A stretch of 32,452 nt of DNA, from positions 1 through 32,452 of the IMG/VR virus record IMGVR_UViG_3300015374_000035. One strand, 5' to 3'. Numbering within the stretch: the stretch's first letter is position 1; the number at the start of each line of letters is the position of its first letter. The translations under genes were made by a program, and so were the position numbers. Under the pieces are notes generated by a model. The model saw nothing but the letters and a program-made list of their open reading frames with translations, was not told where the DNA came from and searched no databases. The DNA comes from a virus. Positions 22,441-29,240 of the stretch are shown here, one piece after another.

Positions 22441-22452
22441 GGCTCCTTTCGA
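22441..22452 (-). promoter_or_regulatory. start-associated sequence TCGAAAGGAGCC, inverted copy
   Basis: The minus strand carries TCGAAAGGAGCC here, the exact inverse of the copy at 22579-22590, and together they bound a 150-bp segment. No start codon or believable gene follows on the minus strand, so it is not an obvious ribosome site. Confidence 0.45.
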
Positions 22453-22578: not shown

Positions 22579-22590
22579 TCGAAAGGAGCC
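22579..22590 (+). promoter_or_regulatory. start-associated ribosome site TCGAAAGGAGCC
   Basis: TCGAAAGGAGCC contains a perfect AAAGGAG Shine-Dalgarno sequence and ends 5 bases before the ATG at 22596. The same 12 bases lie 5 bases before the ATG of the gene at 28498, and an inverse copy lies at 22441-22452. Confidence 0.6.
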
Positions 22591-23486: not shown

Positions 23487-24560
23487 ATGCCGACGGTAGC
23501 GGAGACGCAGACTGCCCTTGCGGCCGAGCGGGCGGAGCGGGAACGGGTCGAGGCGGAACTGATCGCCGCGATCGGGGACCGCGACCACTTCAAGGCTGCG
23601 GCCGACAAGCTCATCGAGCAGCGCGACGCCGCGGTCGAGAAGCTGCGTGAGGCCCTAGCGCCGCAGGAGAAGGGTCGCGTCGTCGCGGCCTTGTGCGAGG
23701 CCAGCTTGGAGGTCGGGGCTGTCCCGAAGGGCCCGCCGTCGAAGGAGCTGGGCTACGCCGTCAGGTCCTACGCCGACATCATGGCGAAGGCGCAAGGCGC
23801 TTTCTCCCGAGCCGGGATCGCGATCGTGCCCGATGGGATCGCGGTCGTGGAGTCCTATGACGTGGAGGTCGGCGACCGGGGCAAGAAGTGGCGGCACCGG
23901 GTCTGCGAGTACCGCTGGAAGGTCTGGCACACGAGCGGCGAGTGGATCCCAATCGTGACGATGGGCGAGGCCCGCGACGGCGGCGACAAGGGCCTGAATA
24001 AGTGCCAGACGGCCGCCTACAAGTACGCCGTCATCGCCGCGCTGTCTCTCGGGGAGCACGCCAACGACCCCGACGCCTACGCCGTGCCGGAGGCCAGCGG
24101 GTCCTATGACAGCGAGCCCGCCGTGACGCAGGAGTCGTGGGCGTCGTGGGCGGACGTGCGAGCGGCGCTGCGGGGGACCGAGGAGGGCAAGGAGTTCGGG
24201 GCGTTCCTCGCCGACAACGGCGTGGACCTGTCGAAGATGGGCAGCGTGTCGCAGCGGCTCGCCGACGTGCTGGAGAACAAGGCGCGGGAACTGCTTCAGG
24301 CCAACCAGGCGGCCGCTCGTGAGGCCTCCAGGGCCGTCCACGCCCCGGCGATCCCTTCGGGGACCCCGGCGGACGATGGGGCTGAGACGGCGTCTCAGGA
24401 CGGCTGGGAGCCACAGGAAGGCGACCCCGTGTCGAATCAGCTCCCCGGGACCGCGAACGTCCTGGAGTGCTCGGTCTGCAACCAGGAGCAGATGGGCGAG
24501 ATCGGCGACGCCTGCCTCATCGAGGGCTGCTCCGGCGTCCTACAAGAGACTCCGTTCTAG
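23487..24560 (+). CDS. erf: ERF-family single-strand DNA annealing protein
   Basis: The 357-residue product has an N-terminal coiled coil (about 1-50) and then the ERF core (about 60-195): ALCEASLEVGAVPKGPP, GYAVRSYADIMAKAQGAF, and the hallmark GEARDGGDKGLNKCQTAAYK. ERF proteins anneal complementary strands in phage recombination and repair. The C-terminal half is variable and acidic, and ends in a Cys cluster (CSVCNQEQ, then ACLIEGCSG) that looks like a small zinc ribbon, possibly for contact with SSB or DNA. It starts 3 bases after the Gam-like gene with AGGAG close to the ATG. Confidence 0.8.
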   Translation: MPTVAETQTALAAERAERERVEAELIAAIGDRDHFKAAADKLIEQRDAAVEKLREALAPQEKGRVVAALCEASLEVGAVPKGPPSKELGYAVRSYADIMAKAQGAFSRAGIAIVPDGIAVVESYDVEVGDRGKKWRHRVCEYRWKVWHTSGEWIPIVTMGEARDGGDKGLNKCQTAAYKYAVIAALSLGEHANDPDAYAVPEASGSYDSEPAVTQESWASWADVRAALRGTEEGKEFGAFLADNGVDLSKMGSVSQRLADVLENKARELLQANQAAAREASRAVHAPAIPSGTPADDGAETASQDGWEPQEGDPVSNQLPGTANVLECSVCNQEQMGEIGDACLIEGCSGVLQETPF

Positions 24561-24562
24561 CC

Positions 24563-25159
24563 GTGGCGGTCTCGGCGATTGCCCATGTCGAGGCCGCTCA
24601 CCCGTCGATGCGGGGGGATCGGTTCCAGGTCCTACGGGCCCTAGCGGACTGTTCCCCCGGCATCGGCCGAACGTCCAACGTCCAGGTCGAGGCGGTCGCC
24701 GTGAGTGCCCGCCTCGACCTGCCCGTCGTCCTGGAGGCCCTACGGGCCCTCGGGGAGATGGGCGCGGTGGACCTGGCGTTCGTGCCCGAACCGGCGGATG
24801 AGTGGCTGGAGTACGTGATCCCGGGCGAGAAGCTGGCCCGGCCAACCCCTAGGGCCAGTAGGAAGAAGGCCGACAACTACGAACCGGCGGTGATGGGCCT
24901 GATCCGCTGGTTCGCGAAGGAGGCCCACGACGCCGGGTTCGTGATGGTCAAGGACACGTTCGCTCCCGCGCAGGCGGAGGCGGCGGTGAAGCTCCTAGCG
25001 GCCGTTGAGGACCGGGGCCGGATCCGTGCCGTCGCGGGGTTCGCTCTCCGGGACCAGCGGCCCGGGTTCCACTGGTGCGGGAAGGTCCTGTCGGTGTCAA
25101 AGCTGGCCGAGAAATGGGACCAGCTCGCCGCCGACTACGACGCCTACGGGGAGGGCTGA
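24563..25159 (+). CDS. winged-helix replication-initiation-like protein
   Basis: Taken from GTG 24563, 2 bases after the ERF stop, the 198-residue product has an N-terminal winged-helix-like region (SNVQVEAVAVSARLDLPVVL followed by EALRALGEMGAVDL) and a C-terminal part with KADNYEPAVMGLIRWFAKEA and a closing FHWCGKVLSVSKLAEKWDQL. This last pattern recurs in phage replisome-organiser and initiator proteins next to the helicase. It is followed by a one-base stop/start overlap with the DnaB-like helicase gene, which supports a helicase-loading or origin-binding role. The ribosome site is weak, and the upstream open frame is a shadow. The function is inferred mostly from context. Confidence 0.5.
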   Translation: MAVSAIAHVEAAHPSMRGDRFQVLRALADCSPGIGRTSNVQVEAVAVSARLDLPVVLEALRALGEMGAVDLAFVPEPADEWLEYVIPGEKLARPTPRASRKKADNYEPAVMGLIRWFAKEAHDAGFVMVKDTFAPAQAEAAVKLLAAVEDRGRIRAVAGFALRDQRPGFHWCGKVLSVSKLAEKWDQLAADYDAYGEG

Positions 25160-26508
25160 TGCCGGCGCCGAAGCTGCCTCGTGACCCGAAGCTGGAACGG
25201 GCCCTCATCGTCAGCGCCGCGAACCAGGCGTACATCGGCGACGGGAAGCTCTACCGGCTCATGGAGATGGCGAACGCCGAGGACTTCGATGTCGCGGCGC
25301 ATCGGCCCGTGTGGGCGACGCTCGACGCGTTGACCCACGAGCGGCAGGCCCTCTTCTACGTGACGCTCGTCCTCGAACGGCTCGGGTGGACGACCGAGGA
25401 CTGGGGCCGGTTCTGCGCCGACGTGGAGTCGATCACCTGGGAAGCCGACCTGTTCCGGGCGGCGGAACGGGTCCATGACCTCGCCTGCCGCCGGAAGCTG
25501 ATCCTCGTCGGCCAGTCCCTAACGAAGCTAGGAGCCGACCCGGATCAGGATGTGGACGACATCGTCTCCCGGGCCCTCCGGCACCTCGGGGACGTGACCG
25601 CCGCCGTCCCGGAGGTAGCCCCTGCTCGATCCCTGGCCGAGATCATGGGCGACGACCCCGAGCACGAGTACGCCTGGGCCGTTCCGGGCCTGTTCGAATT
25701 CGGCGACTCGCTGATCATCACTGGCGCTGAGGGCCGCGGGAAGATGACGCTCCTACGGCAGTTAGCGGTCCAGCTCGCTGTCGGGTTCCACCCCTGGACC
25801 GGCGACCCGTTCGAGCCCCTACGGTCCCTCGTGATCGACCTCCAGGACGGCCGGCGCCGCAACGAGCGGCAGCTCCGGTTGATCGCACGTCGCGCGGGCG
25901 TTGATCCAACGTCGCACCTGTGGGCCGAATCCTGGCAGCAGGGCCTCGACATCATCGGGCGGCGCGCGGACCGGCGTCGCCTGGAGGGCCTGGTCCGTAA
26001 GCACGCCCCGGACGTGTTGGTCCTCGGGCCGCTCTACAAGCTGGCGATGCACCAGCCGCGGGCCGACGCGGAGACGGCGGAGGGGATCCTCGACTTCCTA
26101 GAGCACCTTCGATCCCGGTACGGGGTGATGCTGTTCCTGGAAGGCCACTCCGCCAAGGCGGGCGCGGGCGGGTTCCGGTCCTACGAGCCCTACGGCGCGC
26201 AGACGTTCATGGCCTGGCCCGATGCTGGTTACGGTCTGGCGCCGAAACCGAGGGACCCGCACGGGGTCATCCTGCGGGACTGGAGAGGGAACCGCGACCG
26301 CGAGGCGAAGGTCTGGCCCGAGGCCCTGGTCCACGGCGAGGTGTGGCCGTGGGTCCCGCCGAACGTCCACTACGGGGCCCTACGGGCACGAGGACAGTCG
26401 GGCAGGGTGATGGAGCAGGTCCTCGCCCCGGGGAGCAACGGCCGTACGAGCGACGAGACGTTCCTCGATCGTGGTCAGGACCCGTTCGACACGATGGGGG
26501 GCTCGTGA
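25159..26508 (+). CDS. DnaB/RepA-like replicative helicase ATPase
   Basis: The 449-residue product has an N-terminal DnaB-like helical domain (about 1-115, DPKLERALIVSAANQAYIGD, then AAHRPVWATLDALTHERQ), a linker, and a RecA-like ATPase core from about residue 155. The P-loop is GAEGRGKMTLL at 189-199: Lys195 is present but the usual Ser/Thr after it is Met196. A Walker-B-like LVIDLQDG and a later LVLGPLYKLAMHQPR follow. It should unwind DNA at the fork or act as a RepA-type ATPase. The ATG overlaps the preceding stop by one base. A longer frame upstream is a shadow. Confidence 0.7.
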   Translation: MPAPKLPRDPKLERALIVSAANQAYIGDGKLYRLMEMANAEDFDVAAHRPVWATLDALTHERQALFYVTLVLERLGWTTEDWGRFCADVESITWEADLFRAAERVHDLACRRKLILVGQSLTKLGADPDQDVDDIVSRALRHLGDVTAAVPEVAPARSLAEIMGDDPEHEYAWAVPGLFEFGDSLIITGAEGRGKMTLLRQLAVQLAVGFHPWTGDPFEPLRSLVIDLQDGRRRNERQLRLIARRAGVDPTSHLWAESWQQGLDIIGRRADRRRLEGLVRKHAPDVLVLGPLYKLAMHQPRADAETAEGILDFLEHLRSRYGVMLFLEGHSAKAGAGGFRSYEPYGAQTFMAWPDAGYGLAPKPRDPHGVILRDWRGNRDREAKVWPEALVHGEVWPWVPPNVHYGALRARGQSGRVMEQVLAPGSNGRTSDETFLDRGQDPFDTMGGS

Positions 26509-27092
26509 TGGGAGCGAGAGAGATGAAGCTCATCTCCGACTTGACCTCCGAGGTGGAACGGCTCCGGGATGCGTTGCGGTTCTGGCTCCCTAACGAGGGC
26601 GACGACGAGCGAGGAGCCTGCGCGATCTGCGGTGCCTGGCCCGACATCGAACATATCGACGAGCTACACGCTCGGTGGACGACTGCCCGCGCCCTCGCCG
26701 CCTACCGGGATAAGGAACGGCTCGCCGGCGAGGTGTTGGAGTGGGCCGAGCGCTGCGGCGATGCCGAGGCCGGTGAGGACGAGGCGAAACGCCGTGCCGA
26801 GGCTGCCGAGCGGAAGGTGAAGGACCGGGAGGACGAGATCGCGTCGCTGCACGAGACGATCGAGGAACGCACCGCCGAATGGAAGGCGTGGGAGCGGGAG
26901 ACGGAACGGCTCCGGGAGGGGATCGAGGAGTGGGCCCGCCGTCTCGACAGCGAAGCCGACTCCCTGGACATCAAGCGAGTGCCTCTGACCGTGCCGGCGG
27001 CCTTGTGGGGCATCGTTGATGACCTCCGCGCCCTCGCCGCCTACCGGGAGGACCAGCCGATCGGTCAGCCCGAGGAGTCGACCGATGCCTGA
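26508..27092 (+). CDS. coiled-coil protein with CxxC motif, unknown function
   Basis: The 194-residue product has an N-terminal helix, then CAICGAWPDIEHIDELH (a possible Cys2His2 site at about residues 39-55), and from about 60 to 165 a charged heptad-rich coiled coil. A RALAAYR sequence occurs before and after the coil. The ATG shares one base with the helicase stop. ATG 26523, five codons later, is an alternative. A structural partner of the replication complex is possible but not shown. Confidence 0.55.
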   Translation: MGAREMKLISDLTSEVERLRDALRFWLPNEGDDERGACAICGAWPDIEHIDELHARWTTARALAAYRDKERLAGEVLEWAERCGDAEAGEDEAKRRAEAAERKVKDREDEIASLHETIEERTAEWKAWERETERLREGIEEWARRLDSEADSLDIKRVPLTVPAALWGIVDDLRALAAYREDQPIGQPEESTDA

Positions 27093-27456
27093 CCGGTACA
27101 GCACGTTCCGATCCCGACGCCGCCCGATCCGCGGGGTCTCAGCGAAACGGGAGGAGGAGGACCGGGCCCTAGCGGTGGCTCGGGTCGAGGTCCGCCTCCG
27201 CGACGGCGACGCTTGTTACGCCGCGACCCGCGTCCCGACGGTCCGTTGCCAGGGGCCGCTGGAGCTTCACCATCTGGCGCCCCGGTCGGTGGCCCGGAAG
27301 CTCTACGCCGACAAGGAGAACCTGCGGTTCCTGTGCCTCGCCCATCACGACTGGGTCGACGCCGAACCGGCGTTGGCGCACGAGGTGGGGCTGCACCGGT
27401 TCTCGTGGGAGGACTCCGGACCGGCCGAACCGGACCAACCCGTCACGAACCCCTAG
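27085..27456 (+). CDS. HNH endonuclease
   Basis: The 123-residue product contains the HNH core: Cys44 and Cys55, LELHHLAPRS with His62 and His63, ENLRFLCLAHHDWV with Asn79, Cys84 and His87/His88. The N-terminus is basic. Such small free-standing HNH proteins nick or cut DNA, and in phages they may be homing enzymes or take part in packaging or replication. It overlaps the preceding gene by 8 bases, with a GAGGAG at 27071-27076 before the ATG. The longer upstream frame is a shadow. It is the last gene before a hairpin terminator. Confidence 0.85.
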   Translation: MPDRYSTFRSRRRPIRGVSAKREEEDRALAVARVEVRLRDGDACYAATRVPTVRCQGPLELHHLAPRSVARKLYADKENLRFLCLAHHDWVDAEPALAHEVGLHRFSWEDSGPAEPDQPVTNP

Positions 27457-27474
27457 CGCCGAACCAAAATGAGA

Positions 27475-27505
27475 GCGGCCCGCCTCTTCGCAGGAGGCGG
27501 GCCGC
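27475..27505 (+). terminator. strong hairpin after the HNH gene
   Basis: GCGGCCCGCCTC (27475-27486) and GAGGCGGGCCGC (27494-27505) pair perfectly over 12 bp around a 7-base loop. There is no U tract on the + strand. The minus strand reads CTCATTTTGG after the stem. It may be an incomplete terminator or attenuator. The remaining gap to the next gene (27506-27584) shows nothing clear. Confidence 0.55.
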
Positions 27506-27584
27506 CGAGAAATCCCTTGTGCAGGAAGGGCAGGAAGGGAGTGCACACCATGATAGCGACACCGCGGGCCCCTCGGGGGGTTCG

Positions 27585-27914
27585 ATGAGCAAGTCGGGAG
27601 TCATGGCGATGGCGGAGGCCGGCTCGCAGTACGCCACGATCCCGGGCGCGCTCCTCGCGGATGAACGTGTCTCCGTCGGAGCCAAGACCCTATTCGCGCT
27701 ACTGGACCTGTTCGTCGGCGACCACGACGGCGCCTGGCCTGCCCAGGCTTCGCTCGGGAAGCTGCTCGGCCTGTCGGAGCGGCAGATCCGCCGGTGGCTC
27801 GGAGAGCTAGAAGCGGCTGGCTGGGTGAAGCGACGGCAGCGCGGCCTGACGCTCACGAACGTCTACCAGCTGGAGTACCTGAACCTGCCAGCGCTCCATG
27901 TGTCCGGTTCCTGA
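27585..27914 (+). CDS. HTH replication-initiator/regulator-like protein
   Basis: The 109-residue product has a helix-turn-helix (HTH_36-like) domain at about residues 28-92: SVGAKTLFALLDLFVGDHDG, then WPAQASLGKLLGLSERQIRR and WLGELEAAGWVKRRQRGLTL. Such domains occur in phage and plasmid replication initiators and regulators, which usually have a longer, low-complexity C-terminus with RT-repeat motifs. Here the frame stops early at TGA (27912-27914), inside an inverted repeat, while the +1 frame continues with DRTQVTGQDRTQMTDKKES. A frameshift, stop read-through or genuine shortening are all possible. The ATG was chosen because the upstream frame overlaps the HNH gene and terminator, and the ribosome site is poor. 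Confidence 0.65.
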   Translation: MSKSGVMAMAEAGSQYATIPGALLADERVSVGAKTLFALLDLFVGDHDGAWPAQASLGKLLGLSERQIRRWLGELEAAGWVKRRQRGLTLTNVYQLEYLNLPALHVSGS

Positions 27915-27923
27915 CCGGACACA
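27899..27923. repeat. 10-bp inverted repeat at the end of the HTH gene
   Basis: TGTGTCCGGT (27899-27908) and ACCGGACACA (27914-27923) are perfect inverse copies separated by 5 bases. The stop codon of the HTH gene lies partly in the loop. The right arm is also the start of the first 24-bp direct repeat. It could be an operator, an iteron pair or an RNA hairpin. Confidence 0.6.
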
Positions 27924-27960
27924 GGTGACCGGTCAAGACCGGACACAGATGACCGACAAA
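27913..27960. repeat. two tandem 24-bp direct repeats
   Basis: Two units, 27913-27936 and 27937-27960, begin identically with GACCGGACACAG and continue with TGACCG after one differing base, matching at 20 of 24 positions. They run into the AT-rich segment. They may be initiator-binding iterons, or coding repeats of a frame-shifted extension of the HTH protein. Confidence 0.6.
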
Positions 27961-28139
27961 AAAGAATCAGTAAAAAAGAATCACAAGGTCAAACCCAGGC
28001 GATGCAAGCATCGCCTCCGTTATCGCCTTCGGCGCCTGGGTCAACTGCCAACCCTCAGGTCAACCCCGTTGGGGTGGGTCAAGGTCAACTTCCAGGTTCT
28101 TGCTCGGGCCCCCGGCTCGTCTAGCCCCAGGAGCGCTAA
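27915..28139. other. candidate replication origin / regulatory segment
   Basis: This 225-base stretch between the HTH gene and the zinc-finger gene is unlike the rest of the window. After the tandem 24-bp repeats there is an A-rich island with two copies of AAAAAAGAATCA (27958-27969 and 27972-27983). Next is a perfect palindrome with arms GGCGATGC and GCATCGCC (27998-28015), nested inside arms CCCAGGCG (27994-28001) and CGCCTGGG (28033-28040). GGTCAA then occurs at 27987, 28039, 28058, 28077 and 28083, three of them spaced exactly 19 bases. Iterons plus a melt-prone AT segment plus cruciform next to an HTH initiator-like gene fit an origin. Two frames are also open here, so a coding extension cannot be excluded. 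Confidence 0.4.
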
Positions 28140-28382
28140 GTGCATGCAGCGAAGCCTCGTTGGCAGTCCGGCCTGGTGCGGCGAGCCCACCCGCCCGCCT
28201 GCGTCCTGTGCGGCCGCTCCCTCCCGCCAGGGCGCTACGCCCTCGTCGCCGACTCGGAGACGGGCAAGGTCTGGCGTCACCGGAGCTGCCCGAACCACAA
28301 GGAGCAGCTACTCGCGGCGCGAGCACGAGCCGAGACCCGCAGGCTGGACCGGGAGCTGACCGAGCGTCTCGCCGGGCCCTAG
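28140..28382 (+). CDS. small zinc-finger-like protein, unknown function
   Basis: The 80-residue product has CVLCGRSLPPGRY and later HRSCPNHKE, giving a CxxC...C..H set suitable for one zinc ion, followed by a helical, Arg/Glu-rich tail. It begins with GTG, with CAGGAG about 8 bases upstream. Codon use is typical of the other genes (high GC at third positions), in contrast to the segment just before it. It may be a DNA- or protein-binding accessory factor, with no family recognised. Confidence 0.6.
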   Translation: MHAAKPRWQSGLVRRAHPPACVLCGRSLPPGRYALVADSETGKVWRHRSCPNHKEQLLAARARAETRRLDRELTERLAGP

Positions 28383-28406
28383 CCCCCTAGGGCATGCCAT
28401 AGGCAT

Positions 28407-28436
28407 TTGCATTTGGGTGTGCGCGGCCGATAGAAT
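28407..28436 (+). promoter_or_regulatory. sigma70-like promoter upstream of the 28498 gene
   Basis: TTGCAT (28407-28412) and TAGAAT (28431-28436) are spaced 18 bases, close to the consensus for a housekeeping promoter. A half-site GGTGTGC, as in the arms of the 33-bp dyad, lies between them (28416-28422). The leader contains a 6-bp hairpin CCGGCC/GGCCGG (28449-28454, 28460-28465). Likely start of the second early transcript. Confidence 0.5.
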
Positions 28437-28480
28437 CCCCCGCGCAAACCGGCCGTCCCGGCCGGCGAGCGGAGTGCTCT

Positions 28481-28492
28481 TCGAAAGGAGCC
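28481..28492 (+). promoter_or_regulatory. start-associated ribosome site TCGAAAGGAGCC
   Basis: Identical 12 bases to 22579-22590, ending 5 bases before the ATG at 28498 and containing AAAGGAG. It decides the start of this gene against a longer open frame beginning at 28417. Confidence 0.6.
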
Positions 28493-28497
28493 TGGAC

Positions 28498-28806
28498 ATG
28501 GCATCACGGACCCCGTTCACCCAGCAGCAGCTGGAGGACGCGCTCTACGAGGCGGAGGTGGACGGCGACGTCGCCATCGTGCCGTCCTACAGCGGTAGGG
28601 CGATGTACGGCGAGACCTGCTTCGGTGTCGTCCACGACAACGGGCAGGAGGGCGAGATCGCCATCGTGATCGTCGCGGCGATCATCGAGACCGGTGAGGA
28701 GCCGGAGGACGCGATCCGGCAGGCGTTCAAGATCGTGCGCCGCGCCCGGGGCGACAACATGGGCCGGCAGTACATCACCTACTACCCGGGCTGGGAGCTG
28801 TCGTGA
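28498..28806 (+). CDS. conserved small phage protein (YSGRxMYG motif), unknown function
   Basis: The 102-residue product starts at ATG 28498 because of the strong ribosome site. It contains SYSGRAMYGETCFGVV, close to a YSGRGMYG-x2-C motif I recall from actinophage and actinobacterial hypothetical proteins. A helical middle (QEGEIAIVIVAAIIETGEE) and an Arg-rich segment follow. Function is unknown. It is the first gene after a promoter-like sequence and is coupled to the next gene by a GTGA overlap. Confidence 0.65.
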   Translation: MASRTPFTQQQLEDALYEAEVDGDVAIVPSYSGRAMYGETCFGVVHDNGQEGEIAIVIVAAIIETGEEPEDAIRQAFKIVRRARGDNMGRQYITYYPGWELS

Positions 28807-29240
28807 AGCTCGACACGACGACCCTCCCGAAGCCCGAGCTGCTATTGGAGATCCGGCCGGAGGACTTCCCGAAGATCATCCCCGGCTGGATCATCACGTT
28901 GGAGAGCGTCCTCCCGAAGGGATCGGGGCGTCTCCACCACAGCTACCTGCTCCACCGGATGAGCAGCCCGGTCCTGTCGTGGGTGGGCGGCTCCCTGTTC
29001 GACGAGTACCCGCAACACGGGCTGCTGTGGGAGATGGTCGAGTGGTTCCCGACCAAGAAGGACGCCGAGGCCCACATCCGAACCCACGTCGGGCGCCGGA
29101 GCGGCGCCTGCTACGCGGAGCGGTTCTCCACCGCGGTGCTCCGCTGCGTCCAGCGGGAGTTGGCGTTCCGGGCGGCCGTCTCCAACGACATGACCGAGAC
29201 GGCGCTCACGCAGGCGTGGATGCCCGAGGAGCGGTCGTGA
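28803..29240 (+). CDS. hypothetical early protein
   Basis: The 145-residue product starts at a GTGA overlap and ends in another. It has no family motif I recognise. It is mixed alpha/beta, with several aromatic residues (WIITLES, YLLHRMSS, LLWEMVEWFP) and two cysteines, and shows normal codon use, so it is a real gene. Confidence 0.55.
   Translation: MKLDTTTLPKPELLLEIRPEDFPKIIPGWIITLESVLPKGSGRLHHSYLLHRMSSPVLSWVGGSLFDEYPQHGLLWEMVEWFPTKKDAEAHIRTHVGRRSGACYAERFSTAVLRCVQRELAFRAAVSNDMTETALTQAWMPEERS

Follow-up and report, generated by a model that had tools for sequence, protein, structure and literature searches.

A probable lambda-O-type replication origin directly behind a short HTH initiator-like gene of an uncultivated tailed phage

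Few phage origins are known beyond those of the model phages. The O protein of lambda has a C-terminal half that recruits the helicase. At the lambda origin, dimers of the initiator occupy the iterons and open the A+T-rich tract next to them (PMC5043065; PMC7466680), and the minimal unwinding unit consists of two iterons and the AT-rich tract (PMC7466680). A study of one group of mycobacteriophage prophages, with an initiator of the RepA type, was unable to identify origin-marking repeats (PMC7157519). In the RepA protein of V. cholerae PLE, the binding domain is able to function as a module of its own (PMC8263062).

Here, we analyzed a virus record of 32452 bases, the whole of which is referred to as the window. 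The DNA derives from an uncultivated tailed phage and is a linear fragment with a GC content of 69%; structural genes occupy the left part and replication genes the right part, and the capsid protein is closest to those of actinobacterial phages. A preliminary description of this DNA had proposed a candidate replication origin behind an HTH initiator-like gene. The proposal gained support from the HTH_36 / O-like nature of the gene, the surrounding replication module, the position of the iterons, which agrees with the placement of repeats in 33/57 comparable loci, and the recurrence of the iteron core. We consider region 27901-27986, probably together with the right flank to about 28090, to be a phage replication origin of the lambda-O type, operating by the mechanism proposed below, with a probability of roughly 0.84.

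The replication module and the architecture of the site

The replication module around the candidate origin encodes an ERF annealing protein and two helicases, one DnaB-like/AAA_25 and one of the Snf2 type. The features are as follows (strand given where assigned).

23487-24560: ERF annealing gene
24608-25159, plus strand: gene of the small protein P0005, a candidate helicase-recruiting partner, located 5' of the helicase gene
25159-26508, plus strand: DnaB-like / AAA_25 helicase gene (AAA_25, 1.7e-17; phrog_19, phrog_239)
27175-27456: HNH gene
27585-27914, plus strand: putative HTH initiator gene, 109 aa, stop codon TGA at 27912-27914 (HTH_36, 2e-8)
27901-27907, minus strand: inverted iteron half-site TGTCCGG, within the 3' end of the HTH gene
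27912-27934, plus strand: iteron 1, imperfect dyad GACCGGACAC-AG-GTGACCGGTC, spanning the HTH stop codon
27936-27955, plus strand: iteron 2, AGACCGGACACAGATGACCG, 24 bp from iteron 1
27956-27986, plus strand: A-rich tract (AT maximum of the window), candidate DUE; the two AAAAAAGAATCA copies in it are 14 bp apart
27993-28041, no strand: outer inverted repeat ACCCAGGCG/CGCCTGGGT (arms 27993-28001 and 28033-28041) around the inner hairpin
27998-28015: inner hairpin GGCGATGC-AA-GCATCGCC, 8-bp arms and 2-nt spacer
28039, 28058, 28077 and 28083, plus strand: GGTCAA array, the first three copies with an exact 19-bp period
from 30737 onward: Snf2-type helicase gene

Compared with helicases from Gordonia and Arthrobacter phages, the DnaB-like helicase of the window showed 30-33% identity. 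The C-terminal part of P0005 matched the O-like phrog_391 (E 0.002) and the DnaD-like loader phrog_2514 (E 0.06); a single-sequence structure model of this protein was too poor to use (pLDDT 41). GC skew flattens near 27 kb, a weak signal that is confounded by gene content. DnaA-box-like sites of the form TT(A/G)TCCACA did not occur in the window. A search of viral contigs with the HTH, helicase, P0005 and Snf2 proteins returned no close relative covering the site. Contig L002, the capsid protein of which is 100% identical to that of the window, extends upstream, and its record contained no HTH match.

Three further elements were noticed. An inverted repeat of two perfect 12-bp arms around a 7-nt loop lies between the HNH and HTH genes (27475-27505) and is terminator-like on the minus strand only. 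The word TCGAAAGGAGCC is present in three exact copies (22441-22452, 22579-22590 and 28481-28492), two of them shortly 5' of an ATG and one inverted, resembling a start-associated repeat. A candidate small ORF (28140-28382) with cysteine and histidine pairs is zinc-ribbon-like and has a weak coding score.

Codon use identified the HTH gene as coding (GC3 0.84). Its product matched phrog_270 (replication initiation, 1e-12), phrog_428 (1e-10) and the O-like phrog_391 (3e-8), aligned with phage replication initiators over their N-terminal DNA-binding part only, and does not have the C-terminal loader half. Judged by these matches, the 109-aa protein is a stand-alone form of the domain by which O-like/HTH_36 phage replication initiators bind DNA. 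The recognition helix of the protein reads LSERQIRRWLGELE; a comparison of the whole HTH protein with PDB sequences gave no match.

Behind the gene follow two tandem 24-bp iterons with the core ACCGGACAC, the A-tract, the hairpin and the GGTCAA array. The direct repeats at 27913-27931 and 27937-27955 are 19 nt long, 95% identical and spaced by 24, in agreement with the tandem 24-bp repeats of the preliminary description. Iteron 1 overlaps the HTH stop codon because the gene ends at 27914, which places the stop inside the first of the repeats said to lie behind an HTH initiator-like gene. The site has only two full iterons, near the minimum for the family. The AAAAAAGAATCA copies at 27958-27969 and 27972-27983, likewise as described earlier, are identical and spaced by 14, in an A-rich island that is the AT peak of the window. 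The most AT-rich 60-mer of the 69% GC window falls at the site (62% AT), and the tract behind the iterons has an AT fraction of 0.58 vs 0.31 in the gene and an A/(A+T) of 0.80.

The repeats at the site are real and well beyond chance. Direct 8-mer pairs numbered 15 against a shuffle mean of 0.66, and inverted pairs 11.5 against 1.08; in neither case did any of 2000 shuffles score as high. The earlier view that nothing similar occurs elsewhere in the window did not hold, since the capsid gene stretch at about 661-861 is equally repeat-dense, but this stretch is coding. It is an acidic, repeat-rich segment near the N-terminus of the capsid protein, with a 24-nt tandem unit.

Further to the right, a palindrome inside an outer inverted repeat had been reported. 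Both elements are present, and the palindrome called perfect consists of 8-bp arms with a 2-nt spacer. Folded as RNA, the hairpin was only mildly better than shuffles (z -1.9). A structured RNA at the site was considered and rejected, given one sub-threshold Rfam match, no tRNA and a weak fold. Five GGTCAA hexamers, three at a 19-base period, had also been counted; the period stands, and the number of copies in 27931-28088 is six, with additional copies at 27987 and, within the iterons, at 27931. Only 13 copies occur elsewhere on the same strand of the window. The array could be a site for a second protein. Behind the CCGGACA iterons of other viral loci, no GGTCAA array was found.

Recurrence of the iteron word and of repeats behind HTH_36 domains

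We examined 57 non-redundant HTH_36-type domains from phages, plasmids and bacterial genomes, chosen without reference to the iteron of the window. In 33/57 loci, the strongest short-spaced repeat started between -30 and +300 bp from the end of the HTH domain (binomial p 1.7e-18 vs about 10% expected). The repeat units behind the domain measured 15 bp in SfII and YeP1, 16 bp in Pyei1, 22 and 44 bp in Gingerbug, and 23 bp in the related contig L016. Repeats straight behind an HTH_36 domain are, as read from their position, the lambda-ori layout.

Viral contigs were scanned twice for paired ACCGGACA(C/T) cores, which gave 207 loci. An HTH initiator domain was present just upstream in 48/93 loci with 22-25 bp spacing vs 0/62 with 18-bp spacing (Fisher 3e-14; the counts are of loci, near-duplicates among them), and about 1.5% would be expected by chance for a random position. 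The window shows the same pattern, with ACCGGACA(C/T) cores at a spacing of 24 behind an HTH_36 domain. Its exact iteron was not found in viral contigs; iteron 1 shares 19/22 bases with a non-coding iteron of L095 (GACCGGACATGGGTGTCCGGTC vs GACCGGACACAGGTGACCGGTC in the window, read from the alignment). The preliminary description had named conservation at the DNA level in relatives as a check, and one protein frame conserved across the region as the sign of coding sequence. The iteron core did recur behind HTH domains of other viruses, in no fixed frame, and a single conserved protein frame was not found. In 44/48 loci the cores lay in more than one reading frame, indicating that the DNA is conserved and not a peptide.

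The 60 nt behind the last core were enriched in AT (0.55 vs 0.41 for the loci, p 4e-12; A/(A+T) 0.70) in a comparison of 49 loci that includes the window. GAACC was enriched in the tract (24/48 loci, where 5.9 would be expected), and its copies often follow a period near 12. In L146 and others, GAACC is repeated about every 12 nt, 60-80 nt behind the last iteron. The tract of the window has GAATC twice, 14 nt apart, resembling the GAACC repeats of relatives, of which only about half have GAACC. Possibly, the GAACC repeat in the A-rich tract is a single-strand recognition motif.

The iteron word was also associated with the recognition helix. The signature R4-x-x-[RQ]7-R8 was present in 43/50 domains with CCGGACA iterons vs 7/50 without (p 2e-13), figures that come from the same set from which the signature was derived and from two groups that differ in host groups. 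After clustering at 40% identity, which is a partial correction only, it remained in 18/24 vs 5/34 (p 6e-6). The window protein fits the signature with LSERQIRRWLGELE, alongside matching CCGGACA iterons. The association suggests a possible protein-to-origin code.

A separate arrangement was seen in L149, L162, L178 and L195, where the stand-alone HTH gene and iterons are followed by a small gene and then a RusA-resolvase-like gene (judged by eye), with no obvious loader nearby.

Proposed mechanism and alternative explanations

We infer the steps of binding, opening and helicase loading, as well as the identity of the loader, as follows. A dimer of the HTH protein (27585-27914) would bind the CCGGACA dyads of the two 24-bp iterons and the inverted half-site. 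The bound protein would bend or wrap the DNA, so that the adjoining A-rich tract opens, and the phage DnaB-like helicase (25159-26508) would be loaded on the opened strand. Since the initiator appears to be a DNA-binding domain only, a separate protein would have to contact the helicase, the best though weak candidate being the product of 24608-25159.

The lambda-O-type gene may alternatively be damaged, its tail lost or frameshifted by mutation or assembly error, in which case the site would be the relic of an intragenic origin, possibly still in use. We regard this as improbable, although it is the strongest competitor of the origin model. It fits the location of the iterons inside a longer ORF in 49/55 non-redundant loci and the fact that frame 0 stays open for about 70 codons past the TGA. 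Against it, the DNA 3' of the stop has non-coding codon statistics in every frame (GC3 0.49-0.64 vs 0.78-0.96 in genes), and neither known domains nor a loader-domain match were found in 27898-28356. Short stand-alone HTH versions also recur: all cores lie outside a short HTH gene in five viral loci (L093, L095, L119, L195 and L220), the cores of L080 straddle the HTH stop, and 14 versions have tails of less than 80 aa. A coding tail in another frame was considered separately, and was ruled out by codon use, the absence of a domain and frames that vary among relatives.

A small HTH protein with dyads close by is in many cases an autoregulator, and initiators, too, often regulate themselves. 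The HTH protein could accordingly be a transcription regulator, the repeats an operator cluster, and the A-tract and hairpin promoter or leader elements, and the site does fall between genes on one strand. This explanation is less likely still, because the best PHROG matches of the protein are replication initiators, because the iterons are located behind and not in front of the gene in the window and its relatives, often inside the gene, and because a scan of 27000-29000 for promoters of the sigma-70-like type, the only type covered, found none. An attachment site (attP) or partition site (parS) with arm or box repeats, which the direct and inverted repeats clustered between genes might suggest, is very unlikely, as integrase, ParA and ParB were not found in the scanned proteins (most called genes from 20754 on, in a contig that is a fragment) and in other viruses the core of the repeats is located behind HTH initiators.

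Beyond the origin reading for the window, we tentatively propose, at somewhat less than even odds, that the loci represent a widespread, undescribed class of phage origins. Its common iteron word, CCGGACA dyads about 22-24 bp apart, would be read by an HTH_36 domain with an R..[RQ]R helix, and the unwinding tract behind it would carry a repeated single-strand motif, GAACC/GAATC. Several lineages, that of the window among them, would have reduced the initiator to its DNA-binding domain and shifted helicase recruitment to a different protein. Literature searches in an open-access subset of papers, made by terms other than the iteron word, brought up neither a common CCGGACA word nor the helix signature nor initiators that consist of a bare domain. 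If the iteron word can be predicted from the helix signature, and the word in turn leads to initiators in raw contigs, origins would become locatable from sequence. If a bare DNA-binding domain acts as initiator, helicase recruitment can move off the origin-binding protein.

Comparison with known systems

Several described initiators share part of this arrangement. The HTH_36 / phrog_270 initiators of Microbacterium phage Gingerbug, Paracoccus phage Pyei1, Shigella phage SfII and Yersinia phage YeP1 likewise have repeats immediately behind the HTH domain, but they are full-length proteins with the origin inside the gene, and with other iterons and recognition helices. Closer in layout are the five IMG/VR loci with a short HTH gene and CCGGACA iterons outside it, most of them with an A-biased tract. 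They differ from the window in having no GGTCAA array and other neighbouring genes and, with the exception of L220, in having 3-4 iteron half-sites.

The RepA-dependent origins of the extrachromosomal mycobacteriophage prophages Miko and Jeeves also involve a phage initiator whose HTH is N-terminal, with the origin located within or beside the initiator gene (PMC7157519). However, these RepA proteins are of plasmid type and 320-350 aa long, and their authors found no repeats (PMC7157519); unlike in these prophages, no parABS was seen in the window. In V. cholerae PLE, the origin-binding domain of RepA covaries with semi-palindromic intergenic iterons, a similar relationship, but the domain is of RepA_N type and the protein keeps its C-terminal domain (PMC8263062).

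The closest parallel is ori-lambda, which has the same order of an O-like N-terminal DNA-binding domain, dyad iterons directly behind it and then an A+T-rich tract (PMC5043065; PMC7466680). The window has two iterons vs four in lambda, and the iteron sequence differs. Whereas ori-lambda lies inside the O gene, the gene of the window stops at the iterons, leaving the origin outside. The initiator of the window, in contrast to lambda O, comprises 109 aa, is HTH only and does not have the C-terminal helicase/loader-binding domain. As predicted from its sequence, the site would work like ori-lambda, yet it departs from two of the defining features of that origin, the location inside the gene and the C-terminal helicase-recruiting half of the initiator.
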